Assembly (NCBI GenBank): GCA_002733575.1
Contig: NVWB01000005.1
Span: forward strand, 1-64,000
Direction: 5' to 3'
Length of the DNA stretch: 64,000 bases
Origin: Blastopirellula sp.
GTDB taxonomy: Bacteria > Planctomycetota > Planctomycetia > Pirellulales > Pirellulaceae
In this document: positions 9,011 to 48,160 of the stretch, piece after piece
Layout of the letters: every line of letters begins with the position of its first letter
Numbering within the stretch: the stretch's first letter is position 1
Position numbers and translations under genes: made by a program
The notes under the pieces: model-generated
Told to the model about the DNA's origin: nothing
Seen by the model: the letters and a program-made list of their open reading frames with translations, nothing else
Databases searched by the model: none

Positions 9011-9254
9011 AGACGAGAGCTTAAACAGTTCATCATCAAGACTGAAGCTAGAGCATTTCTGTTCTGTTGTTTGATCTCGAATTAATTCTTGTAGCCGGAT
9101 TCGTGAGAATTCAGTTTTTTTTCGGCATTGTTTTTCGGCATTGAGGGTTCTCTGAAGTCTAACGACTTCAGCTACATTTGCTGTCGTGAAATCTTCTCAC
9201 ACTTCACACTGGCACCTGGAAATGGCTTCTTAGTTGACTGAGAAATATCCAGTA
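9011..9254. repeat. Intergenic hairpins between convergent genes
   Basis: Contains a perfect stem CTGAAGTC/GACTTCAG (9152-9159 and 9164-9171) with a 4-base loop, and a direct repeat TTTTTCGGCATTG. A TAGAGCATTTCTGTTC motif near 9050 resembles the terminal repeat of the elements at 28.4 and 33.8 kb. The hairpin can serve as a bidirectional terminator for the haem gene and the kinase gene. Confidence 0.5.
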
Positions 9255-12200
9255 TCACTCGTCGCTTGTACCGGTCTCACCAAGCAAAGCCTTGGCTTCC
9301 TTGTACGCCAGCCACATTATCAGGTCACGCTTATCGGCATCGTCGGCAAGGGGGTTCTTTTCATCCGTAGGGAGTGGTTTCATTGTGGCTTCGGCTTGGT
9401 TGAACAGCGTGCGGGCTTCGTCTGGTTTGCCTTGTTGGAAGAGACTCATTGCACGATAGAAGTTGGCGGTGCCCTTAATAGTCCCGTTATCCAGAATTTC
9501 GGCAGCGGTACTGAGGCCATTGTTGGCCATGGCGTAGTGCCCACTGCGGTATTCGGCCATGCCAAGGCACACTTGAAAGTAGGGCAGTAGATCCTTGTGT
9601 TCGGGTCCAATTTCAACAGCACGCTGGGCAAGGGCGAGAACAGTTGCTCTCATCTCGTCATTCGAGATGGGGGAGATGCAACTAAGCTTGGCAACCCTCT
9701 TAAATTCACCCGGTTTTGTGGCATCTTTGGCCCACTTCAGCATTCGCTCTCTCGTGGCCAGATACTCGGCGTCCTTACTGAACCAGACCTGTAAAGCGGC
9801 GGTTTTCATGGCCAGAAATGTATCCCCAGGATTGTCAGCGGAGTATTCCGCCAACAGAGGAAGCGTTTCCACCGTGCGGCCCGCAGAAGCGAAAATTGTA
9901 AAAGCGGTGCTGGACAGTTCCGGTTTTGATTTCACCGCCTGCACACATGCGTCCAGGTTCTTCAGGTCCTTCAGGAGCATTTGGGTCTTGTCGTGGGCCT
10001 GTTGTCGCATCACGCCGTTCCTGATCGCTGTCAGGTACGCTGTGAAGGCTTCGCCTGATTTTCCGGATCGCTCGAGTAAGACTCCGAGATAGAACGGGGC
10101 ATTTGATTTGATCTTCGGATTCAGCTCGATGGCTTTCCGCCATGCGTCGATCGCCTCTTCTGTCCTCTCTTTTCGATCCAACTGGAACCCAAGATTGCTG
10201 TAGGAAATCGCCAGATTCCGCATTGCGCTGAGGGTGTCGGGGTGCTCTGGACCCGATACCTTACGATAAAGCTCTAGCAGCTCTTCAAGCATCTCCAATG
10301 CCTCATCTGGGCGACCAGCAATGCCATAGGAAGTCACCAGTGTATTCATCGTGTTAAGGGTGTCGGAGTGCTCTGGACCCGATATCTTACGATAAAGCTC
10401 TAGCAGCTCTATAAGCATCTCCAATGCCTCATCACGGCGACCAGCAATGTCATAGGAAGTCACCAGTGTATTCATCGTGTTAAGGGTGTCGGAGTGCTCT
10501 GGACCCGATATCTTACGATAAAGCTCTAGCAGCTCTTCAAGCATCTCCAATGCCTCATCACGGCGACCAGCATTGCCATAGGAAGTCGCCAGTGTTTTCA
10601 TCGTGTTAAGGGTGCTGGGGTGTTCTGGGCCCAATACCATACGGTCAAGTTCCAGCGTCTCTTCATGCATCTCCAATGCCTCGTCTGGGCGACCGGTTGC
10701 GTAGTACGAACTCACCAGTTTATTCATCGCCCTGAGCGTGTCGGGGTGTTCTGGACCCAATACCTTACTTTGAAGTTTTAGCACTTCTTCTTGCAACTCC
10801 AACGCCTCTTTTTGTCGTTCGGAAAGCGAGTAAAATCCCACCAGACGAATCATACTTTGGAGCGTGTGGGGGTGTTCATCGCCGCGAGACTTACGGCTGA
10901 GTCGCACTTTTTCCTCTTGCAGTTCTAATGCCTTTTGATGCTGACCAGCATTGAAGTAAGTAATTGCAAGTCCCTCCAGCGTCATGAGCGTGTGGAAGTG
11001 CTCAGGGCCGAGTACTTTACGACGGAGTGTCAATACTGCCTCCAACAGCTTCAACCCCTCGTCTAGGCGACCTTCTGCAAGGTACCCGTGCGCCAAATCA
11101 CGCATATAACCGAGAGTGCTATAGTGTTCGGGTCCATAAATTTTTCGGCCAATCGCAACGATTTGCTCTCGCAGTTCCCTACCCTTTTCAGGCTGACCAG
11201 CTAGGGAGTAGGAATTCGACAGGAGGACAAGCAACTGGATCACCTCTCCGCTCTCGTCGCCGTACAATTTTTGGCAAAGTGGAAGCATCTTCTCTACCAT
11301 TTCACAAGCCTTGTCTGGGTGCCCCGTCTTAACGTAGTAATCCGCCATAAATCGCATCGCATTGAGTGTGGAGGGGTGCTCAGGGCCGTGCAGTTTACGT
11401 TTTAGTGTCAGTATTTTCTCTTGCAGTTCAAACGCCTCTTTGGGCCGATAGATCTGGGAATATAAATGCGCCAATGTTTGCATTAATTCGAGTGTCAGAG
11501 GGTGTTCGGGGCCGTAGGTCTTAGTGCGGAATTCCAGCAGATCCTTTCGTATCTTCATCAGGTCCTCTCTAATCTTTAACGCCTCGTCTTTGCGTTCTTC
11601 GCGGTCATAGGAATTACTCAAACTCCGCATCGCATTGTGTGTATTGGAGTCCTCAGTACCAAAATTGGTAAAGTAATAGTCCCGCACCTTCTCTTGTAGT
11701 GGAATGGCTTCGTGATACAGGCCGAGCGTGAAATAGGTTTTTCCGAGGGTGGCTTGCAACTTGGCCCGCTGGGCAGGTTGGTCGGCGAGTTCCGTCTCCA
11801 GCTTTCCAACAGCGTTGCCGAGCGTCTCAGCCACAGTGATGGTGCGACCATCTCGGGCTGGGTCAGCGCTTTGGAAGACTTTGCTGAGAAACTTTGAAAT
11901 AGCTTCCGCCTCTTTTCGAGCCAGTTCTTTCGCGTCACGTTCAGCGGCGACTTGTACTAAGGTTTCGGCCGTTTTCTTCTCTGCTTCTACCGCACGGGCC
12001 GCTTCGACTTTGGCCACTCCTTCAGCATTGGTTGCCCGAACAGTTTCGTTTCTTGCTAATGTTTCTGCATTGGTTGCCCTCACTGCTTGCCAGACGCTGA
12101 AGGAGATGCCGATTACCAGGACCGCCACAATGGCCGTACCAGCGGTGATTGCCAGTTTATTTCGTCGACGAAGTTCCTCCGTCCGAATCAGAGCATCGGC

Positions 12201-13589
12201 TTTTGCCCTTTCGGTTTCTCGTAGTTTGTTCTCGACTGATTCTAAATAGCCAACCACTTGCTCGGCCAGCACGCCGGCGTCACGTGGGCGATCTTCTGGT
12301 TCGAGTTCTAAGCAATGTTTCGTGAGAGCAATTAATTCAACATCAGCTTCACAAGCATCAAGCCGCTCAAAACAATCTCCCAATTTGCCACGTGCCGCTT
12401 GACGATAGATGGAGTTACCATCGGTGCCAACATACGGCGGTTGGCCAGTGAGGATTTCGCACAGAATGGCCCCCAGTCCAAACACATCGGCTCGTTCGTC
12501 GAGGTGATCAATTTCACCCAACGCTTGTTCTGGCGGCATGTAGGCCGGCGTGCCCATCACGCTGCCCATTTGTGTTTCTGATCCCTGTGTACCGAACGTG
12601 CCCGGTGCATCACTACCGACACTGCGTAGCGTTTGGATAATGCTGACATCATTGAGTTTAGTATGGGCCTTCTTTTCATCGGCCACGCCACCTGTGGGCA
12701 GAACTTTGGCCAAGCCCCAGTCCATGACCTGAACTTCACCAAACGCCCCGACCATGATATTGGCTGGCTTCAAGTCTCGGTGAATGACACCGCGACTATG
12801 CGCGTAGGCCATCGTCTGACACATTTGTTCGAATATACCGAGTAACTTTCCACGATCAGCATTTGCATTTTCTCGTTCTGATAAAATGGCAGAAAGCGTT
12901 TTTCCTTTGACTAGTTTCATAGCGAAAAACGGGCGTTTGTCGGCAAACTGACCCAGTTCATAGATCGGAGCAATACCTGGATGCTGTAACTGCCCGCCGA
13001 TTTGGGCTTCTTCCACAAACCGCTGAACGATTTCTGGCTTGTCTTTATGATCATCAAGCAGCACCTTGATCGCCAAGTCACGACCGAGATCGGTATCGCG
13101 GCCTTTGATAATCGCCCCCATGCCACCGCGGGCAATTTCACCATCAAGTCGATAGCGACTGTCGGGGTTAGTTATCGGCATCTCAGACGACTTCGGTCGA
13201 ATAACTGAATCCGGCCCCTCTTCAATCGAATCTCGCAACGCAACCCGTGGAAGGTCTATCGTCTGGCCCAAGGTCCTCAATACACTGTGATTCGCACGCC
13301 CAATGACCACCGCTTCCTCTTCACCAAACGAAGCCGCCAACCCAGCTTCAAGAGATTCTGCCAAGTTGCCGCGTGAATTTTCAGGCAAGACGGTCGCTTC
13401 AAGTTCGGCTGCAGGTTTTTTTAGAAACTGTGATTCTTCAAGATAGGCTGAGAGTAGTTTCTCAACCCGCTGTTGCAAACCGGAGTCTTTACCGCAGGCT
13501 TCTTTTAGGTAAGCAGCCTGGTCGTCACTCGAATTGATTTTACGAGCGGCGTTGAAAATGGTGGCTTCGTTGGATGGCGCTTCAGACAT
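9255..13589 (-). CDS. Membrane Ser/Thr protein kinase with long TPR array
   Basis: 1444 residues. Residues 1-60 are the leader usual in planctomycete kinases. The kinase domain spans about 146-450: glycine loop GEIARGGMG (150-158), catalytic Lys175, HRDLKPAN loop (270-277), DWG in place of DFG (290-292) and the APE-like 'MPPEQAL'. One transmembrane helix covers about 479-500, followed by an Ala/Glu-rich coiled coil. Kinesin-light-chain-type TPRs of 42 residues ('LGPEHPxTLxxMxxLAxxYxxxGRxxEAL') run from about 620 to 1130, then further TPR-like helices reach the end. All kinase catalytic residues are present. It probably forms an operon with the ECF sigma gene 108 bp upstream; ECF factors paired with Hanks kinases are a known arrangement. 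The substrate may be that sigma factor. Confidence 0.92.
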   Translation of the reverse strand: MSEAPSNEATIFNAARKINSSDDQAAYLKEACGKDSGLQQRVEKLLSAYLEESQFLKKPAAELEATVLPENSRGNLAESLEAGLAASFGEEEAVVIGRANHSVLRTLGQTIDLPRVALRDSIEEGPDSVIRPKSSEMPITNPDSRYRLDGEIARGGMGAIIKGRDTDLGRDLAIKVLLDDHKDKPEIVQRFVEEAQIGGQLQHPGIAPIYELGQFADKRPFFAMKLVKGKTLSAILSERENANADRGKLLGIFEQMCQTMAYAHSRGVIHRDLKPANIMVGAFGEVQVMDWGLAKVLPTGGVADEKKAHTKLNDVSIIQTLRSVGSDAPGTFGTQGSETQMGSVMGTPAYMPPEQALGEIDHLDERADVFGLGAILCEILTGQPPYVGTDGNSIYRQAARGKLGDCFERLDACEADVELIALTKHCLELEPEDRPRDAGVLAEQVVGYLESVENKLRETERAKADALIRTEELRRRNKLAITAGTAIVAVLVIGISFSVWQAVRATNAETLARNETVRATNAEGVAKVEAARAVEAEKKTAETLVQVAAERDAKELARKEAEAISKFLSKVFQSADPARDGRTITVAETLGNAVGKLETELADQPAQRAKLQATLGKTYFTLGLYHEAIPLQEKVRDYYFTNFGTEDSNTHNAMRSLSNSYDREERKDEALKIREDLMKIRKDLLEFRTKTYGPEHPLTLELMQTLAHLYSQIYRPKEAFELQEKILTLKRKLHGPEHPSTLNAMRFMADYYVKTGHPDKACEMVEKMLPLCQKLYGDESGEVIQLLVLLSNSYSLAGQPEKGRELREQIVAIGRKIYGPEHYSTLGYMRDLAHGYLAEGRLDEGLKLLEAVLTLRRKVLGPEHFHTLMTLEGLAITYFNAGQHQKALELQEEKVRLSRKSRGDEHPHTLQSMIRLVGFYSLSERQKEALELQEEVLKLQSKVLGPEHPDTLRAMNKLVSSYYATGRPDEALEMHEETLELDRMVLGPEHPSTLNTMKTLATSYGNAGRRDEALEMLEELLELYRKISGPEHSDTLNTMNTLVTSYDIAGRRDEALEMLIELLELYRKISGPEHSDTLNTMNTLVTSYGIAGRPDEALEMLEELLELYRKVSGPEHPDTLSAMRNLAISYSNLGFQLDRKERTEEAIDAWRKAIELNPKIKSNAPFYLGVLLERSGKSGEAFTAYLTAIRNGVMRQQAHDKTQMLLKDLKNLDACVQAVKSKPELSSTAFTIFASAGRTVETLPLLAEYSADNPGDTFLAMKTAALQVWFSKDAEYLATRERMLKWAKDATKPGEFKRVAKLSCISPISNDEMRATVLALAQRAVEIGPEHKDLLPYFQVCLGMAEYRSGHYAMANNGLSTAAEILDNGTIKGTANFYRAMSLFQQGKPDEARTLFNQAEATMKPLPTDEKNPLADDADKRDLIMWLAYKEAKALLGETGTSDE
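10198..10738 (-). repeat. 126-bp near-identical tandem repeats inside the kinase TPR region
   Basis: The phrase GTGTCGG(A/G)GTGCTCTGGACC recurs at 10234, 10360 and 10486, with a diverged copy at 10612, exactly 126 bp (42 codons) apart. The central copies differ by only a few bases, so they arose by recent duplication of single TPR units. Repeat number may vary among strains. Confidence 0.85.
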
Positions 13590-14640: not shown

Positions 14641-17259
14641 ATGGAAGACTTAACCCCTCAAAACTTGAATGCCACTCAAGGCGAGAGCTCGTCGATCTCG
14701 GTTGCTAAGCAACGGGAACGGGCGCGGGAGGTACTTGCGCAGCAGAAGGAAATGTTTGGGCAAATCGAACAACGGATTTTAGGCCACATTAAACAAGTGA
14801 CCGAAGGTCTCTCAACTCAAGAATCCGAGATCAGTAGCCAGCAAGAATCAATTTCGCAATCGACCGCCGATTTGGATCAACAATCGGCCGAATTAGCCAT
14901 TGCCGTTCAATCCTTTCAAGATACTGAGAGTCAATGGAAAGAGCAGTCCATAGCCAAAGAGCAAGCTTTCGTGGAGACCTCTGCCGAGCTTTCTGAACGA
15001 CAAGCAGGGCTGGATCGATACCAGGAAGAACTGAATCAAAAAGAAGAAGCGCTAAAACAGCATCAAGAAGAGTATCACCAACAAAGTAGTGAGCAGGGCG
15101 ATCTGCAAGCCAAAATTGCCGAACTACAGTCGACCAACGATGACACCGAAGCCAGAGCCCACAGCTTAGAAGCAGAGAAGCAGCAACTGGCCGAAGACGC
15201 TGCGAACCAAAACGAACATGCCGCGAACCTTGACTCGCAAATCCAGGCCCTGCAAACCGAGCTCGAAGCAGCACGCACACAAGCCGAGACGAACGCTCAT
15301 GACGCCGAAGCCAGAGCCGACAGTTTAGAAGCCGACAAGCAACAACTGGCCGAAGACGCTACGAACCAAAACGAACATGCCGCGAACCTTGACTCACAAA
15401 TTCAGGCTCTGCAAAACGAGCTCGAAGCAGCACGTACACAAGCCGAGACGAACGCTCATGACGCCGAAGCCAGAACCCACAGTTTAGAGGCAGACAAGCA
15501 ACAGCTGGCCGAAGAAGCTACGAACCAAAACGAACATGCCGCGAACTTGGACTCGCAAATTCAGGCCCTGCAAAACGAACTTGAAGAGTCACGTGCCACA
15601 GGCCAGGCAAACAATGAGCAGCGAGAGCAGTTGCAGAATAGCCTGAACGAAAAAGAAGCCGCGTTCCAGCAACTTTGCGAAGAGAAAAATACTGCGGATG
15701 GCCAACTCAACGAGAGAGCGGGTCAGCTTCAAGAGGAATCTGGCCGAGTCGAGTCGTTAGAAACAGAACTGCATGAAGCCCAGCAGCAAGTGACCCAGTT
15801 GGGTGAATCGCAGGCTGCGGACAAAAACACGATTGAAGAATTGTCGACCCAAATCGAAGGGGTGCTGCAGGAACTGAAGGAATCAGAAGTTCAGTGCAAT
15901 ACGTTGAAGGAATTGGAAGAGTTCCCCGTTTTGCTAGACAAGCAAACCGAAGAGTTCTTACAGTTGCAAGAGGCTCATAAGTCGGTTCTACAACAACTGG
16001 AAGAAGTCGAACAAACGGCCCAAGAGACACAGAATAAATTCGAGAATCAACTGAACCAGGCACAAGAGTCGCTTCAGCAAAAGCAGCAGGAATTAGAGAC
16101 ACAGGTTCAGGCGGCCGAACTTCTTCAGCGGCAAGGCAGCGAGCATGCCGAGTCTTCTGCTGCGGAACGAACAACGCTAGATCAAAAGCGAACACAGCTC
16201 TCGACAGACAACCAGGAATTGCAGAAACAGCTCGAAAGCCAAGCTGAAAAGGCGAAGGAACTTCACGAACAGAGTGATCTGTTGCAAGCAGAGAAACAGT
16301 CGCTACAGGCTCGCTTAGATGACGCTCAAGGGGAAATGGAAAGCCAGTTAACCGCGTCTCAAATTGCATTGGGTCAGGCACGGGAAGACCAAGAGCTGCT
16401 GCGAACCCAGTTGACCAGCATGCGTCAGAAACATGAAACGGGGACCGATCAGCTTGAGCAGTTGCAACAAGAAAATGAAAGCCTAAGAAATCAATCCACC
16501 GAAGCCGTTGATGAAGGGGCCTTGCATGAAATGACTGCCCAGCGTGATCAATTGATAACTGAGGTTGAACAACTCCAGCAATCGGCCACCCATGGAGAAG
16601 CAGAAGGTGATTCAGAACGGGTTAACGACCTGGAATCCCGACTTCAGATGAGCCTTGATGATCTCAAAGAGCTAAAAGCAGAGAATAAGCAGCTTCAGTC
16701 AGAAATCAGCAATCAGTCTACAACGGCCGATAACGATGCCGATGATGGCGTGATGGACTGGGAGGCGACCAAACGCAAGATGCTGGCACAGCTAGAAGCC
16801 GATTGTGTTGAAGACAACTTTGAAGATGCCCAACGAAAACTATCGGTGAAGGAAGCGATTTCCAAAACCGATCAGGCATTGGAATCAAAAGACCTGGAGA
16901 TCAGTGAGCTGAACGAAGCGATTGATTCGATGCGTGCTGCCGGATTAGCGAACAACGAAGGTGTTGCGATGGGTGCTCATGCGATCGGCAGCTTGTTAGA
17001 TCAAGACGAGTTGATCGCGCATGAACGAGAAAACTTGAAGCACTTGCAGGAAGAATGGAAAGACAAGCTGCGTAAGGCCGAAGTCGAGCTTTCGGTGGAA
17101 CGGGCAAAAATTGCACGAGAGCGTGCTGACATGCAAGGCCAACTCAAGCAACTAGAGCAAGCAAAAACCCAAAAGAGCCCCCGGCCTGATGTTCGTGATT
17201 CCAAGCCAACTCGCGGCAACTGGCTTTCGCGGTTAGGTTTGAAAGACGGCGAAGATTAA
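14641..17259 (+). CDS. Large cytoplasmic coiled-coil protein
   Basis: 872 residues, almost entirely Gln/Glu/Ala/Leu-rich heptad sequence, without signal peptide or membrane helix. Residues 171-318 are three near-identical 53-residue repeats starting 'ARAHSLEAEKQQLAED'. The C-terminal 200 residues are less repetitive ('DWEATKRKMLAQLEADC', 'LDQDELIAHERENLKHLQEEW') and end in a basic segment KPTRGNWLSRLGLKDGED, the part most likely to have a specific contact. Length and composition suggest a rod-like filament or tether. I cannot assign it to a characterised family. It converges on the sigma-54 regulator. Confidence 0.8.
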   Translation: MEDLTPQNLNATQGESSSISVAKQRERAREVLAQQKEMFGQIEQRILGHIKQVTEGLSTQESEISSQQESISQSTADLDQQSAELAIAVQSFQDTESQWKEQSIAKEQAFVETSAELSERQAGLDRYQEELNQKEEALKQHQEEYHQQSSEQGDLQAKIAELQSTNDDTEARAHSLEAEKQQLAEDAANQNEHAANLDSQIQALQTELEAARTQAETNAHDAEARADSLEADKQQLAEDATNQNEHAANLDSQIQALQNELEAARTQAETNAHDAEARTHSLEADKQQLAEEATNQNEHAANLDSQIQALQNELEESRATGQANNEQREQLQNSLNEKEAAFQQLCEEKNTADGQLNERAGQLQEESGRVESLETELHEAQQQVTQLGESQAADKNTIEELSTQIEGVLQELKESEVQCNTLKELEEFPVLLDKQTEEFLQLQEAHKSVLQQLEEVEQTAQETQNKFENQLNQAQESLQQKQQELETQVQAAELLQRQGSEHAESSAAERTTLDQKRTQLSTDNQELQKQLESQAEKAKELHEQSDLLQAEKQSLQARLDDAQGEMESQLTASQIALGQAREDQELLRTQLTSMRQKHETGTDQLEQLQQENESLRNQSTEAVDEGALHEMTAQRDQLITEVEQLQQSATHGEAEGDSERVNDLESRLQMSLDDLKELKAENKQLQSEISNQSTTADNDADDGVMDWEATKRKMLAQLEADCVEDNFEDAQRKLSVKEAISKTDQALESKDLEISELNEAIDSMRAAGLANNEGVAMGAHAIGSLLDQDELIAHERENLKHLQEEWKDKLRKAEVELSVERAKIARERADMQGQLKQLEQAKTQKSPRPDVRDSKPTRGNWLSRLGLKDGED
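15151..15592 (+). repeat. 159-bp tandem repeat (2.8 copies) in the coiled-coil gene
   Basis: Copies start at 15151, 15310 and 15469, spaced by exactly 159 bp (53 codons). The third copy loses similarity near 15592. A 53-residue period keeps the coiled-coil register only approximately (7.57 heptads). High DNA identity means recent duplication. Confidence 0.85.
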
Positions 17260-24736: not shown

Positions 24737-26959
24737 ATGAGCGATAAACCCGACCCAATTTTCGACCTATTTTTGGAAGAGCTGCTCAGTGAGCAAACTC
24801 CGCCAGATCTCAGTGCGCGAATCCTGGCCGCTCATCAACAGAAAACTGCTCCTAAAGCTCAGCCACCTAAAGTTGCTACGATTGCAAATGGGGTTGCCAT
24901 AGCGGTTGCTGCCTCTAATTCAGATCCATGCGATTCAAACACCAAGGTAGTTTCCGCCAGAACAAAAGCTCGCAAAGCACGCCGCAATCGCTTTGCCATT
25001 TCAATGAGCTTGTCACTGGTGCTCTTTCTGGCCATCGGCGGTCTCTCTTACTGGGGTGTTACGAATTTTGTCATCCCAGGTGATCAACCGATTGCGGACA
25101 ATGATCCACAAAAGGATCCACAAAAGGATCCACAAAAGGATCCACAAAAGGATCCACAAAATCCAATTGAAACAAATCAGGATGAGCAATTCGTTCAGGT
25201 CAATCCTGATGTTTCTCCCATAGAAACAAATCAAGTAACACCAGATACGCGTGTTCCCAAAGAAACGACACAAGTTTCCTCCAACAACACAAAGCCCGCT
25301 GTGGTTCAAGCCACGCTTGCGGTGGCCAAAAATCAGCCTTCGGCCACTTTGATTCAATCTGATGAGCAAGTGATTCAGGAAATCAACACCCTAATTGCAG
25401 CCGCTTGGAACGAATCAGATATTCAACCTGCCAAAGCTGCCACCGAAGAAGAATGGTGCCGTCGAACGTACCTTCGACTGCTGGGCCGTATTCCTACGGT
25501 CGATGAATTAAAAAAATATACTTCTCGAAGACCGAAAGACAAACAAACTTGGCTCGTCGATAAAATCCTGTCAGACAAAACCTACACCGAAGAGTTCGCT
25601 AGTTACTGGGGCGCACGTTGGGCCAATGTTTTAGTCGGTCGTGCTGGCGGCATGCAAAAAGATAGCCCTATTGATCGTGAAAGCCTTGAACAGTATCTGG
25701 CTTCGCATTTTGCCAAAAACACGCCTTACAATTATGTGGTTCAAGAATTGCTAACGGCGACCGGTTCCACCACGCCAGACGCCAAAGACTTCAACCCGGC
25801 TACCAACTTTTTAGTCAGCATGCTAGACGACAAAGCCACATTGGCCACCAGTAAAGCTTGCGAAGTCTTTCTGGGCCAGCGTCTCCAATGTATTCAGTGC
25901 CACAATCATCCTTCCAACGACTGGCAACAAAATCGCTTCTGGCAACTCAACGCGTTTTTCCGTCAATCTGATAGCAAAAAGAACCTTGATTCAAAAGGCT
26001 ATCGAATTGCAGATCACGACTTCTCAGGCGAAGGCGGAGACGCCAACAGTACAAACTCTAAAAGGGCGAACCCCAACGGTGCAGAAGTTTACTTTGAAGA
26101 ACTCAATGGACGAGTCCAAGTCGCTTACCCGCGATTTGTTGACAATACGGAAATCCCTCGCTCTGGCAAACTCAGCGAGGTCAATCGCCGCGAGCAATTG
26201 GCCAGCTTGATTACCACTTCCAACTTGCTTCCCAAAGCAACCGTCAATCGCGTCTGGCAACATTTCCTCGGCATTGGATTCACCGTTCCGGTAGACGACA
26301 TGGGTCCACATAACCCACCATCACACCCTGAGTTGTTAAACAACTTGGCCGATCACTTTGCCGCCAGCGGATATGATTTCAAACGCCTAATGAAATGGAT
26401 CACCTTGAGCAAAGCCTACGGCCTCTCAAGCCAGGCACCTGCTGACCAATTTGCCAATCACCCTGAACTTAATTACCCACAAGCTTCCGGCCAATTGTTC
26501 GCTCGCTACTATTCTCGACAGATGGAAGCCGAGCAGTTGTTCCATTCGCTGACGATGGTAGCCAAATCTAGCAACAAGCCGCTCAACATTATTGCCGATG
26601 CCCGAGATCGTCAACAATGGCTAGGCCAGTTTGCTCGCAAAATGGGCGACGACGAAGCGAGTGAAGACACCTCGTTTAATGGCTCAATTTCGCAGTCGCT
26701 AGAAATGATGAACGGCCAGCTTATGTACAAGGCCACCAATAAAAAGAATGGCGTGCTGCAAGGGGTAATTTCCAGCAAGATGAACCCTGCCGAAAAGGTC
26801 GACCACCTATTTTTGGCCGCTTTGTCACGGCACCCTTCCAAAAAAGAAAAAAAGGCGATTCAGCAGATTTTGCAAAAACGCCAACACGAACTCGACCTAT
26901 CACTCCAAGATATCTGGTGGGCTCTACTCAACAGCAACGAATTTATCTTGGATCACTAA
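24737..26959 (+). CDS. Membrane-anchored DUF1549/DUF1553 protein with anti-sigma-like N-terminus
   Basis: 740 residues. Residues 1-35 ('DPIFDLFLEELLSEQTPPDLSARIL') resemble the short helical N-termini of planctomycete anti-sigma proteins. One transmembrane helix lies at about 87-109, preceded by a basic RTKARKARRNR stretch, so the N-terminus is cytoplasmic. A DPQK repeat linker (123-142) and a Ser/Thr/Gln-rich spacer lead to DUF1549 (about 215-430; CxxCH in 'QRLQCIQCHNHPSND') and DUF1553 (about 475-735). Its position directly after an ECF sigma gene suggests a fusion of sensor/regulator and effector. It differs from the family member at 20414, which has an ordinary signal sequence. Confidence 0.88.
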   Translation: MSDKPDPIFDLFLEELLSEQTPPDLSARILAAHQQKTAPKAQPPKVATIANGVAIAVAASNSDPCDSNTKVVSARTKARKARRNRFAISMSLSLVLFLAIGGLSYWGVTNFVIPGDQPIADNDPQKDPQKDPQKDPQKDPQNPIETNQDEQFVQVNPDVSPIETNQVTPDTRVPKETTQVSSNNTKPAVVQATLAVAKNQPSATLIQSDEQVIQEINTLIAAAWNESDIQPAKAATEEEWCRRTYLRLLGRIPTVDELKKYTSRRPKDKQTWLVDKILSDKTYTEEFASYWGARWANVLVGRAGGMQKDSPIDRESLEQYLASHFAKNTPYNYVVQELLTATGSTTPDAKDFNPATNFLVSMLDDKATLATSKACEVFLGQRLQCIQCHNHPSNDWQQNRFWQLNAFFRQSDSKKNLDSKGYRIADHDFSGEGGDANSTNSKRANPNGAEVYFEELNGRVQVAYPRFVDNTEIPRSGKLSEVNRREQLASLITTSNLLPKATVNRVWQHFLGIGFTVPVDDMGPHNPPSHPELLNNLADHFAASGYDFKRLMKWITLSKAYGLSSQAPADQFANHPELNYPQASGQLFARYYSRQMEAEQLFHSLTMVAKSSNKPLNIIADARDRQQWLGQFARKMGDDEASEDTSFNGSISQSLEMMNGQLMYKATNKKNGVLQGVISSKMNPAEKVDHLFLAALSRHPSKKEKKAIQQILQKRQHELDLSLQDIWWALLNSNEFILDH
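25103..25162 (+). repeat. Five 12-bp repeats encoding DPQK
   Basis: GATCCACAAAAG is repeated five times in frame (the last copy ends AAAT), giving DPQK x4 then DPQN. It forms the flexible linker just outside the membrane helix. Perfect copies suggest slippage-prone length variation. Confidence 0.95.
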
Positions 26960-28426: not shown

Positions 28427-28889
28427 TCTAGAACATTTTAAAAATTCGTGTCCCGACTCATTACGAAAAACGGCTTTTGATTTTCAGTTTTTCTCAGTCC
28501 CGTTAGGGACGATATCATGTAGCCAGGGAATTCATTCCCTGGAACCGATATGCCCCAATTCAAGAAAGCCCCAGTCGGGGCGACATCGAGAGGATCAAGG
28601 ATGTTTTGGCATTTAACTGCCGATTCGTGTTAGGAATATCTTTGATTTACAGTATGAAACTGCCGCTTTAAATCGATGTCGCCCCATCCGGGGCTTTGAG
28701 GTTTCGTGGCTCTTTTTCCAGGGGATAAATCCCCTGGCTACACGATTTCGTCCCTTTCGGGACTAAAAATAATTTCAATCTGACGCATTATCTAGCCTGA
28801 AGAGACTAGAAAGAACCGAAGAACCTGACAGTAATTTCCCCCACTCATCGATGAATACTCGGGTATGCTATCTTTAGAAATGCTCTAGA
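28427..28889. mobile_element. Nested-palindrome element A (463 bp, terminal inverted repeats)
   Basis: Ends: TCTAGAACATTTTAAAAA (28427-28444) and, read inward from the other side, TCTAGAGCATTTCTAAAG (28872-28889). Inside, outer arms 28496-28542 and 28718-28764 pair; each arm also folds on itself around AGGGAAT/ATTCCCT or GGGGAT/ATCCCC. Inner arms 28566-28589 and 28673-28696 pair at 21 of 24 bases. There is no coding capacity. The right 120 bp match element B in reverse orientation. MITE-like, non-autonomous by inference. Confidence 0.8.
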
Positions 28890-31899: not shown

Positions 31900-32150
31900 G
31901 GGTAGCCCAGTTTGCTCGCAAACTGGGTTGACGCAGTCAACAAGAGGTCGCACGTGGTGCTGAGCCTAGAACAAAAGATGTTCATTTTTGACGTAGGTCA
32001 GTGCTGTGCCTGACTATGAAGTGGCATCGATTCTCAATCTCCGTCAGGCACAGCACTGACCTACAGATTTTCAAATCCAAAGTTGTTCGACATTCAACAT
32101 GAAATCTCTTGCGGCTGCGCCGCCCAGTTTGCGATCAAACAGGGCTACCC
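31900..32150. repeat. Nested inverted-repeat (REPIN-like) element
   Basis: Outer arms 31900-31927 and 32123-32150 match in inverse orientation at 26 of 28 bases. The left arm itself is a hairpin, CCCAGTTTGC-tc-GCAAACTGGG. Inner arms 31993-32014 and 32043-32064 (starting GTAGGTCAGTGCTGTGCC) pair perfectly over 22 bases. A small GTTGAC/GTCAAC hairpin lies at 31927-31941. It fills the gap between the methyltransferase and esterase genes; no coding capacity. Confidence 0.85.
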
Positions 32151-33848: not shown

Positions 33849-34112
33849 GAGGGCATTTCTAAAGATAGCATACTGAGTATTCACCGATGGTTGGGGCAAA
33901 TGATTGTCATGTTCTCCGGTTCTTTCTAGTCTCTCCAGTCTAGTAATGCTTCAGATTGAATTTATTTATTAGTCCCGATAGGGACGATATCGTGTAGCCA
34001 GGGAATGAATTCCCTGGCTACACGATATCGTCCCTAACGGGACTGAAAAAACAGAAAAATAAAAAATCCGCTTTTCATAATTAGTCGGAACAAGGATTTT
34101 TAAAATGCTCTA
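33849..34112. mobile_element. Nested-palindrome element B (about 264 bp, inverted relative to A)
   Basis: The left end GGGCATTTCTAAAGATAGCA matches the right end of element A in reverse. The right end reads ...TTTTTAAAATGCTCTA. The 120 bp next to the left end align with element A throughout. In place of the large interior of A there is one 74-bp almost perfect palindrome (33971-34044). B therefore looks like an internally deleted form of A. The terminal CTA (34110-34112) is the stop codon of the sulfatase. Confidence 0.8.
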
Positions 34113-35474
34113 GGGCTTGATCACAATCGAATGATCTGGCACATCGGAATTGTCTTTCTGCGATTCTTGTACGCGAATTGCTTGTAGTTTGGCCAGTTGC
34201 TTCTTGTTCGTCGCAGCCCGGTCTGTTTTCTCGTATGGATCAACACTCAAGTGAAATAACTCCGAAGTTTTCTTCTTGGTGTTGTAGATTAACTTCCAAT
34301 CGCCCAGATGCACGGCCACACTGGTTCCGCCGGGGCCTACGTTGTAGAGAACACGATTCTCATTGCCTGGTATTTTGCCGGTAATGACAGGCCAAATATT
34401 TTGTCCATCCCAGGCTAAGTCTTCCTCTTGTTCAAAGCCAACTAAGTGACATAGCGTAGGCATCCAGTCGACCACATGCAGCGGGGCGGTAATCTTTTTC
34501 GGCTGTAGATGTCCTTTCCAATGGACAAACGCTGGCACGCGAATCCCGCCTTCGTACGATTGTTTTTTCCAACCTCGCAGTGGATGATTTAGCCCTTGGA
34601 CTTTGGTGGTCGCCTTGGTGTTGGGGTAGTTACGGCTATCGTCTCCGTTGGTTCCGCCGTTGTCTGAGAAGAAGAGGATTAGCGTGTTGTCTCGCTGTCC
34701 GGTTTGTTCCAGTGCGGCCAGCATTTGGCCTACGCCGTCATCTAAATGGGCCACACTGGCCGCGTATTGACGTCGGCCAGTATCAATGAGTTGACATAAG
34801 TCGAGATATTTCTCCGTTTCATCAAACGGAGTATGAACCGCTGTATACGGAACATAGATAAAGAAAGGGCCTTCTCGTTTGGCTTCGATAAACTTGACTG
34901 CTTCGCTGGTGACTAAGTCGGTCACGTGTCCTTTTTCTTCGATCAACTGGTCATTGCGATGCCAGGTCTGCATGTACTCGCCCTGTTTGTACAAGTGGCT
35001 CCAAGGGTTCACGCCGCCTGCCAAGCTTCCGTGCGAATGTTGAAACCCAAACTGCTTGGGGCCCCACTGAGTTTTAGAACCAAGATGCCATTTACCAGTG
35101 ATGTAAGTTTCATAGCCGACCGATTGAAGTGCCGAAGCCAGGGTAACCGTGTTCCAAGGAAGCACTCGCGTGTTGGATGGGGCATGGTTGCCAAAACGGC
35201 TCCAATATCGGCCAGTCAACAGTCCGGCCCTAGTCGGCGTACACATCGGCGCCACATAATGCCGGTCAAGTTCTACGCTTTGTTTACAAAGCTGATCGAT
35301 ATGCGGCGTAGGAATCGGGCTGCCATGATAACCGACATCGGCCCAGCCCATGTCGTCGGCTACAATCACCAAGATATTGGGGCGAGTAGTAGGTTCACTG
35401 CCTAGCAGTTGATGAGCAAGAGCTATCAGCCCTAGAAAACATGAATAAGATATTAAACGGGTACAGATCGACAT
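34110..35474 (-). CDS. Secreted sulfatase (formylglycine type)
   Basis: 454 residues with a signal peptide (ending near LLGSEP). Metal-binding Asp40/Asp41 lie in 'VIVADDMGWADVGYHG'. The active-site cysteine is Cys78 in MCTPTRAGLLTGR (CxPxR), which needs conversion to formylglycine. 'HTPFDETEKY' and the late 'DGQNIWPVITGK' stretches fit family S1. It hydrolyses sulfate esters, most likely on algal or mucin polysaccharides, in the periplasm. The substrate subfamily cannot be read. The TAG stop lies inside the terminal repeat of element B, so the C-terminus may have been reset by that insertion. Confidence 0.93.
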   Translation of the reverse strand: MSICTRLISYSCFLGLIALAHQLLGSEPTTRPNILVIVADDMGWADVGYHGSPIPTPHIDQLCKQSVELDRHYVAPMCTPTRAGLLTGRYWSRFGNHAPSNTRVLPWNTVTLASALQSVGYETYITGKWHLGSKTQWGPKQFGFQHSHGSLAGGVNPWSHLYKQGEYMQTWHRNDQLIEEKGHVTDLVTSEAVKFIEAKREGPFFIYVPYTAVHTPFDETEKYLDLCQLIDTGRRQYAASVAHLDDGVGQMLAALEQTGQRDNTLILFFSDNGGTNGDDSRNYPNTKATTKVQGLNHPLRGWKKQSYEGGIRVPAFVHWKGHLQPKKITAPLHVVDWMPTLCHLVGFEQEEDLAWDGQNIWPVITGKIPGNENRVLYNVGPGGTSVAVHLGDWKLIYNTKKKTSELFHLSVDPYEKTDRAATNKKQLAKLQAIRVQESQKDNSDVPDHSIVIKP

Positions 35475-40486: not shown

Positions 40487-40862
40487 TTAGAGCATTTTTA
40501 AAACTGCTGTTCTGCTAAAATATTAGTGCCGGTAGGAACGAAGTCAGCTAGACTGGTTCTTCAGAACCAGGAATAGCCTTGCCTGAAATCTCAAAGTCCC
40601 GGCAGGGACCATGTCGATTTATTACGTTATTTCAAGCTGAAAACCAAAGAGATTTCTACCACGAATCGGTAGCCTGAAATCAAAACATCCACGATGCGCC
40701 CGACGTCGTCCCATCCGGGACTATCTTGAATTTGGGCGAAGTCACCTAGCCTGGGGATGAATCCCCAGGCTAGGTGACTTCGCCCCTATCGGAACTGAGA
40801 AAACTTGAAATTCCGGACTCTTTTCGTAGATTCTCGGAGTACAATTCTTCAAGATGCTCTAG
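40487..40862. mobile_element. Nested-palindrome element C (about 376 bp)
   Basis: Ends TTAGAGCATTTTTAAAA (from 40487) and CTAGAGCATCTTGAAGA read inward from 40862. The right half carries a 52-bp palindrome (40734-40785) with a 24-bp perfect stem and 4-base loop, starting GGGCGAAGTCACCTAGCC. The left half has the matching but decayed arm. Inner arms carry GTCCCGG/CCGGGAC. The sequence differs from A and B inside but keeps the same plan. It ends 9 bp before the stop codon of the TPR gene. Confidence 0.75.
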
Positions 40863-47761: not shown

Positions 47762-48067
47762 TTAGAGCATTTTCAACATGACTGTTTTGCCGTGAAACCT
47801 TCTGTCCCAGAGGGACAGTATCGTGTAGCCAGGGGATTTATCCCCTGGAATCGAAGCTCAAAGAACCCAAAAGCCCCAGCGGGGCGACATCGCAAAAGTT
47901 GAGTGGTGTTGCCATCTGAAAACGAATTTCACAAAGAATAATCATCGAATCATAGCTTCTAAAAGGGTTTATTGAACCGATGTCGCCCCGCTGGGGCTTG
48001 GAGGATTTAGCTCTTTCATCTCCAGGGGATAAATCCCCTGGCTACACGATTTCGTCCCTACGGGACT
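47762..48067. mobile_element. Nested-palindrome element D (right end unclear)
   Basis: Left end TTAGAGCATTTTCAACA resembles the ends of A to C. Perfect 22-bp inner arms lie at 47871-47892 and 47978-47999 (AAGCCCCAGCGGGGCGACAT...). Outer arms contain the self-palindromic CCAGGGGATTTATCCCCTGG (47829-47848) and its variant (48022-48041). The sequence follows element A very closely between these points. No matching terminal repeat was found on the right. It lies in the 47595-48350 divergent gap, which otherwise holds the repeat at 48161-48210. Confidence 0.75.
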
Positions 48068-48160
48068 GAAAAAAATGACACTTATGGATTAGAGGCCAGA
48101 GGGTTTTCCATTACTTTAAATTTTAAAAATTAGTAATTTGAGGGCAGTAACTTTATCTGA

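Follow-up and report, generated by a model that had tools for sequence, protein, structure and literature searches.

Nested palindromic elements in a Blastopirellula genome and their probable relation to Y1/HUH transposases of subclass 1.2

The 64,000 nucleotides of Blastopirellula sp. analyzed here (contig NVWB01000005.1, positions 1 to 64,000; the window) carry four non-coding elements, A to D, each with terminal inverted repeats (TIRs) and two self-complementary arms around an inner inverted repeat. The question raised by this locus is what these elements are and which enzyme moved them.

Elements A to D and their relatives in the genome

Direct reading of the sequence found all four elements in the window. 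The preliminary description had grouped them as one family with defined ends, and this held, with new limits for A and C and unchanged limits for B; D was also real and starts at 47763, but its right end lies near 48145 and not at 48067. As had been stated, none of the four contains a transposase. Their density of four copies in 20 kb, previously regarded as high, was not significant (P about 0.09). The features are listed below, with hp1 to hp3 denoting the hairpins of an arm.

28429–28887, plus strand: full-length element A of 459 bp, with left end TAGAACATTTT and right end AAATGCTCTA
28429–28493, plus strand: left outer shell of A, type i, 65 nt, opening with the terminal inverted repeat (TIR model E 1.6e-10)
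28494–28603, plus strand: left arm of A, with hp1 GTCCCGTTAGGGAC, GTAG foot and hp2 at 28519–28542, and hp3 within 28565–28589 (arm model E 1.7e-19)
28659–28766, minus strand: right arm of A, an inverted copy with hp3' within 28673–28697, hp2' at 28718–28741, and hp1' (E 1.4e-19)
28767–28887, minus strand: right outer shell of A, type iv, 121 nt
33849–34112, minus strand: element B, 264 bp, a deletion form with two hp2 halves fused
40488–40861, plus strand: element C, 374 bp, same plan, with arms of the CTAGCCTGGGG (RAYT-2) type
47763–48145, plus strand: element D, with a clear left end of type ii and an eroded right end near 48145
47800–47907, plus strand: left arm of D, with hp1, GTAG-hp2 and hp3 (arm model E 1.4e-18)
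47963–48070, minus strand: right arm of D, an inverted copy (arm model E 6.5e-19)

Each arm comprised three hairpins: hp1 reads GTCCCxxxxGGGAC, hp2, on a GTAG foot, reads CCAGGGAATTCATTCCCTGG or similarly, and hp3 reads GCCCCxxxxGGGGC with GACATCGA after it. The GTAG-hp2 occurred in inverted pairs in A, B, and D, while the foot in C was CTAG. The large inverted repeat of A had arms of 57 nt that were 82% complementary, with an inner repeat of 25 nt; the corresponding values for D were 50 nt, 88% and 22 nt. In the predicted single-stranded DNA fold, the arm of A reached a z of -3.45 and the whole element a z of -7.71. The window has 12 occurrences of the hp2 palindrome against none in its shuffles, and the whole genome has 74 against 0 for a reversed control. 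A near-perfect 74-nt hairpin between two genes (31992–32065) is probably a terminator or another palindrome; miRNA-type Rfam matches there and in B were below gathering and due to long perfect hairpins.

The genome searched comprised 9.25 Mb in 438 contigs and was 88% complete, and the copy numbers, which come from the arm and outer-end models, are lower bounds. A covariance model of the arm revealed at least 142 arms at E < 1e-3, and at least 54 arms or arm matches formed convergent pairs; in about 30 of these the core measured 268–277 bp. Merging arm and TIR matches gave at least 93 loci. The same copies served both to set the arm limits and to build the TIR model. The supposed co-occurrence of ends and palindromes was borne out genome-wide, with 55 of the 70 outer-end matches tallied among those listed having an arm directly inside; the TIR matches without an arm, among those inspected, were mostly internal-deletion forms, such as C45 with one hp1 left between two ends and C113 with almost nothing left. 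Conversely, the end TAGAGCATTT lay, within two mismatches, outside 70 of the 142 listed arms against 7 expected. The boundary was sharp at the first T: in a stack of 40 ends, the rise in information (from <0.3 to 0.8 bits) fell exactly on the T of TAGAGC. As a stand-alone marker TAGAGCATTT was discarded, being at chance level in the window and significant only by its position relative to arms.

Four end types (i, ii, iii, and iv) had the first 40–60 nt in common and were combined as i with iv in A and as iii with ii in the copy carrying the Y1 gene RAYT-1 (see below) and its relatives; the type ii left end of D is thus the one found in that copy. Element A and a copy at C117 were 86% identical over 462 bp, the alignment stopping within 1–2 bases of the limits of A. 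Identity among copies was 85–86% for the best full-length pairs and 91% for the best partial pair, and the median of 74% implies that the spread is old and that the family may be inactive. Plasmid records held no match to A, and the hp2 palindrome was absent from 59 relatives, none of the same genus. At L259 (1357–1384) and L260 (2606–2633), the opening 28 bp of the TIR stand alone, with a few more bases in common and then unrelated sequence.

A related end that had been placed near 9050 was not sustained, having no arm behind it and no TIR-model match. Close by, 9152–9175 is a canonical GTAG palindrome (GTAGCTGAAGTCGTTAGACTTCAG) of another family, the core of which also occurs in L058, L059, and L120; class-2-like RAYT genes (motif YVHQNP) at C298 and C346 are possible partners of it. 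The window further contains three tandem repeats: 10231–10808 (126 bp, 4.6 copies), in a large minus-strand ORF at 9255–13589 and the source of TAGAGCTTTAT near-matches to the TIR; 15140–15594 (159 bp, 2.9 copies), within an ORF; and 25103–25161 (12 bp, GATCCACAAAAG, 4.9 copies), also within an ORF.

Y1 transposase genes between inverted arms

A PF01797 search of the genome found a Y1 gene at C123 (RAYT-1, 150 aa) and another at C63 (RAYT-2). RAYT-1 lies between inverted copies of arms of the A/B/D type (hp1, GTAG-hp2, hp3), and its outer arms align with those of C437, C24, and D. RAYT-2, which is 73% identical to RAYT-1, is flanked by CTAG-type arms with the CTAGCCTGGGG hairpin and an AGTCCC hp3. 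The earlier view of C as a variant keeping the plan with arms of its own was correct, and these arms are common to the RAYT-2 element (79% identity over 100 nt for the right arm of C, including the same hairpin variant). The outer ends are eroded at the RAYT-1 copy, and RAYT-2 is without a clear shell. Longer arm pairs at C396, C248, C437, C14, and C205 yielded no further Y1 gene by tblastn.

The Pfam Y1_Tnp match reached 1.6e-29, and the PDB sequence matches were solved IS200/IS605 transposases. RAYT-1 reads YVSNQEEHH and RAYT-2 YVQGQGEHH, with DHVH and WQ in both; at the level of sequence motifs they thus carry the subclass 1.2 signature of TnpA-Y1 (Y---Q--HH, DHVH, WQ). The suggestion of a RAYT-like partner was right as to Y1 genes between arms, but the proteins are of subclass 1.2 and not class-2 RAYTs. 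IS200/IS605 insertion sequences (subclass 1.1) are near-identical, multi-copy, and bear non-inverted subterminal hairpins; the two diverged genes and the inverted arms do not fit this.

The same arrangement recurred in other genomes. Homologues were detected at E < 1e-25 in 81 of 392 Planctomycetota genomes, and inverted hairpin arms flanked the Y1 gene at 29 of the 30 loci examined, that of the Blastopirellula genome included. Among 80 named loci from Planctomycetota, Verrucomicrobiota, Acidobacteriota, Bacteroidota, Sumerlaeota, and Chlamydiota, 55 had a flanking inverted repeat with a score of at least 16, compared to 3% of mispaired controls, and Y---Q--HH was present in 79 of the 80 proteins. 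The common plan was hp1, about 10 nt, a TAG foot with hp2, a linker, and hp3 beside the gene. About half of the Bacteroidota loci were without strong inverted arms, and many Bacteroidota arms kept hp1-TAG with hp2 absent. Paired copies of the same plan without a gene were present in G390, G179, and G250. In three congeneric species, gene and arms also occupied one orthologous site (L277, L282, and L283), as REPtrons do. Flank homology there began again no farther than about 10 nt from hp1 on some sides, and on one side about 50 nt intervened. Arm numbers differed at this same site. The link between arm and transposase is strong. Arms nested around an inner repeat are a general feature, unlike the TAGAGC shell.

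The outer shell and its target site

In the Blastopirellula genome the core sits in an inverted shell of 40–65 bp beginning TAGAGCATTT. A search for the TAGAGC shell in 195 other genomes of the order gave at most two weak matches. With the shell confined to this genome and the arms phylum-wide, the two look like distinct layers that can come apart.

The base outside the end was C or T at 61 of 70 ends, and single elements showed this at either end. A duplication of 4 bp (CTAG, for instance) was rejected, as the outer base differs between the two sides of single elements and only TA fits. Among 14 frames of at least 70 codons reaching an end, a few of which may not be genes, the terminal triplet was the in-frame stop in 11, against 3 and 0 in the other two frames; like the target-site counts, these numbers depend on ends that were recognized by their resemblance to the consensus. 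The right-end TAG of B is the stop codon of a sulfatase-like gene (34110–35474, minus strand), and when 33849 is taken as the start of B, reading by eye under the TA model yields CCC-TAG, an immediate closure of the host frame. For queA, beside an element at C368, 29 of 30 sequences (queA itself among them) stop at the same residue. When elements were removed in silico with TA duplication, the frame closed at once at C24 and C140, and that of queA ran for one more residue before closing; without the duplication the frames ran on. Judged from these junctions, the shell probably landed at Y-TA-R sites with TA duplication. The 11 ends on stop codons suggest how elements settle beside genes without breaking them.

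IS630/Tc1-mariner enzymes use a symmetric TA target, whereas IS200/IS605 enzymes use a one-sided tetranucleotide target. The symmetric TA target therefore suggests that a DDE enzyme, IS630/Tc1-mariner-like, made the shell insertions. A DDE transposase with matching ends, proposed earlier as a partner to look for, was not found genome-wide: the TIR model detected none with such ends in the 88%-complete assembly. As autonomous partners, three DDE_3 loci were set aside because they are without these ends, and solo TIR matches at C27 and C166 because no such gene is there.

We consider it likely that A to D are old non-autonomous members of a mobile-element family with a Y1/HUH transposase of subclass 1.2, the shell having been moved probably by a DDE-type enzyme. 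The arms would fold on single-stranded DNA and the cognate TnpA would cut and rejoin them in trans, as TnpA-REP does on REP sequences. Such action in trans would produce paired REPIN-like copies without the gene, and deletions between hairpins would produce forms such as B. The DDE-type enzyme that moved the shell would be lost or unassembled, and insertions at stop codons would be tolerated, since the element end supplies the terminal TAG.

It is unlikely that the subclass-1.2 Y1 enzyme alone moves the whole element with its shell, with TAGAGC as its outer cleavage sites in this lineage. The only transposase gene inside a copy with homologous outer arms is indeed a Y1 gene (C123), and the shell rarely occurs apart from arms or what is left of them, as this would predict. 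However, the Y-TA-R symmetry and the apparent TA duplication misfit the target of IS200/IS605 enzymes, arms occur without the shell in other genomes, and at the orthologous locus described above flank homology begins again close to hp1 on some sides.

That the elements are plain IS630/Tc1-mariner-type MITEs, with the hairpins as passengers and no link to Y1, is improbable. They resemble such MITEs in being non-coding, with inverted ends of 40–65 bp, a probable TA target and a sharp boundary, and DDE_3 genes are present at three loci in the genome. They differ in having a core of Y1-type arms; in many phyla such arms border Y1 genes with the shell absent, and the arm variants correspond to the two Y1 paralogues. 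No DDE gene with these ends, that is, no matching transposase, was found in the genome.

The Acido-Lenti-1 motif and comparison with known systems

The hp2-hp1 part of the arm is covered by the Rfam family RF01687 (Acido-Lenti-1), of which the gathering score is 37 bits. Its consensus is the arm read outward: an 8-bp stem, GGCUA, a 12-nt linker with CGU, and a 5-bp stem. D (43.5 bits) and A (37.6 bits) reached the gathering score, while B and the other arms (31.8–35.8 bits) fell below it; at E < 1e-3, both arms of A, B, and D were matched.

28496–28542, minus strand: RF01687 match on A
48022–48067, plus strand: RF01687 match on D
33998–34044 and 33971–34017: RF01687 matches on B, below gathering

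RF01687 reached the gathering score in 21 of 56 loci of the subclass-1.2 type and was nearly the sole Rfam family around Y1 genes. A rescan of 20 sources at E ≤ 0.01 added five more such loci and gave no match at four other Y1 loci. At L166 (G203), nine Acido-Lenti-1 units occupy both sides of one Y1 gene (1267–1446 and 1989–2362), which suggests local tandem growth of the arm.

Acido-Lenti-1 was described as a probable RNA of Acidobacteria and Lentisphaerae with no known role (Weinberg et al., 2010; PMC2864571). It is still taken for a regulator of neighboring genes: a 2026 paper on Tannerella (PMC13298647) suggests that it may regulate protease genes. The arms share with it the hp2-GGCTA-linker-hp1 structure, but here this forms an end of the inverted repeat that flanks a transposase gene. 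From the sequence comparisons we infer that the family is a transposon end; a limited search of the open-licence literature found no paper saying so. The preliminary description had raised a stable RNA at operon ends, and the RF01687 match accords with that idea, but the conservation is better explained by a transposon end. It is highly improbable that the arms are conserved as RNA, either as the Acido-Lenti-1 sRNA or as 3'-UTR stabilizers at operon ends, with the spread as repeats secondary. Several elements begin exactly at the stop codon of a gene and would thus be transcribed as 3' UTR, which together with the Rfam matches fits such a role; yet the arms form inverted pairs that enclose a transposase gene, and they also build strand-symmetric elements, and their stems vary between families while the plan is constant, as expected of co-evolving transposon ends.

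Subclass 1.2 has been characterized by Y---Q--HH, DH[IV]H, WQ, and a length of about 148 aa (Corneloup et al., 2018; PMC6006769), and as low-copy, without REPs, generally without terminal structures, and found mostly in Cyanobacteria and Bacteroidetes (PMC6006769). The present genes agree in DHVH, WQ, Y---Q--HH, a length of about 150 aa, and low gene copy number, but differ in their inverted three-hairpin arms, many dispersed copies, and occurrence in Planctomycetota and other phyla. Since the published absence of structures comes from a small sample and is worded "generally without," the arms extend subclass 1.2 rather than exclude membership.

REPINs and REPtrons (PMC3116915, PMC3733652) likewise combine GTAG-footed inverted hairpin pairs, a gene that stays put, and dispersed non-autonomous copies. 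Unlike in those systems, the protein here is not class 2, each arm has three hairpins, the length is 270–460 bp, and the foot is more generally TAG (GTAG, CTAG, TTAG, or ATAG). TIRYTs and TIRtrons (Di Nocera et al., 2013; PMC3733652) are similar in having a Y1 gene in long inverted repeats, some double-palindromic, and dispersed copies, but their listed TIR motif, GGGGWSAS, differs from the arm here; most TIRYTs are of subclass 2.1 (PMC6006769). Least credible is that the elements are canonical REPINs of a class-2 RAYT: the GTAG foot, which fits the GT[AG]G of such REPINs, the inverted pairs, and the longer Y1 genes with class-2-like YVHQNP at C298 and C346 speak for it, but the arms do not flank those two genes, RF01687 having no match at L035 and L036, and the arm-flanked RAYT proteins have Y---Q--HH instead of a class-2 Y motif ending in NP and score 39.7 and 35.9 bits against a cut-off of 80 for NCBIfam REP_Tyr_transpos, while lying above the IS200 cut-off.

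More tentatively, it is possible that Acido-Lenti-1 and the subclass-1.2 Y1 enzymes are the two halves of one single-stranded DNA transposition system of Planctomycetota, Verrucomicrobiota, Acidobacteriota, and Bacteroidota, which here lies inside a TA-targeting shell and so would form a two-layer element with two unrelated chemistries. This reading offers a function for two orphans, an HUH subclass believed to have no partner DNA, together with an Rfam "sRNA" whose role was not known. If it is true, the RF01687 annotation would become that of a transposon end, and each TnpA would have a ready-made candidate substrate.
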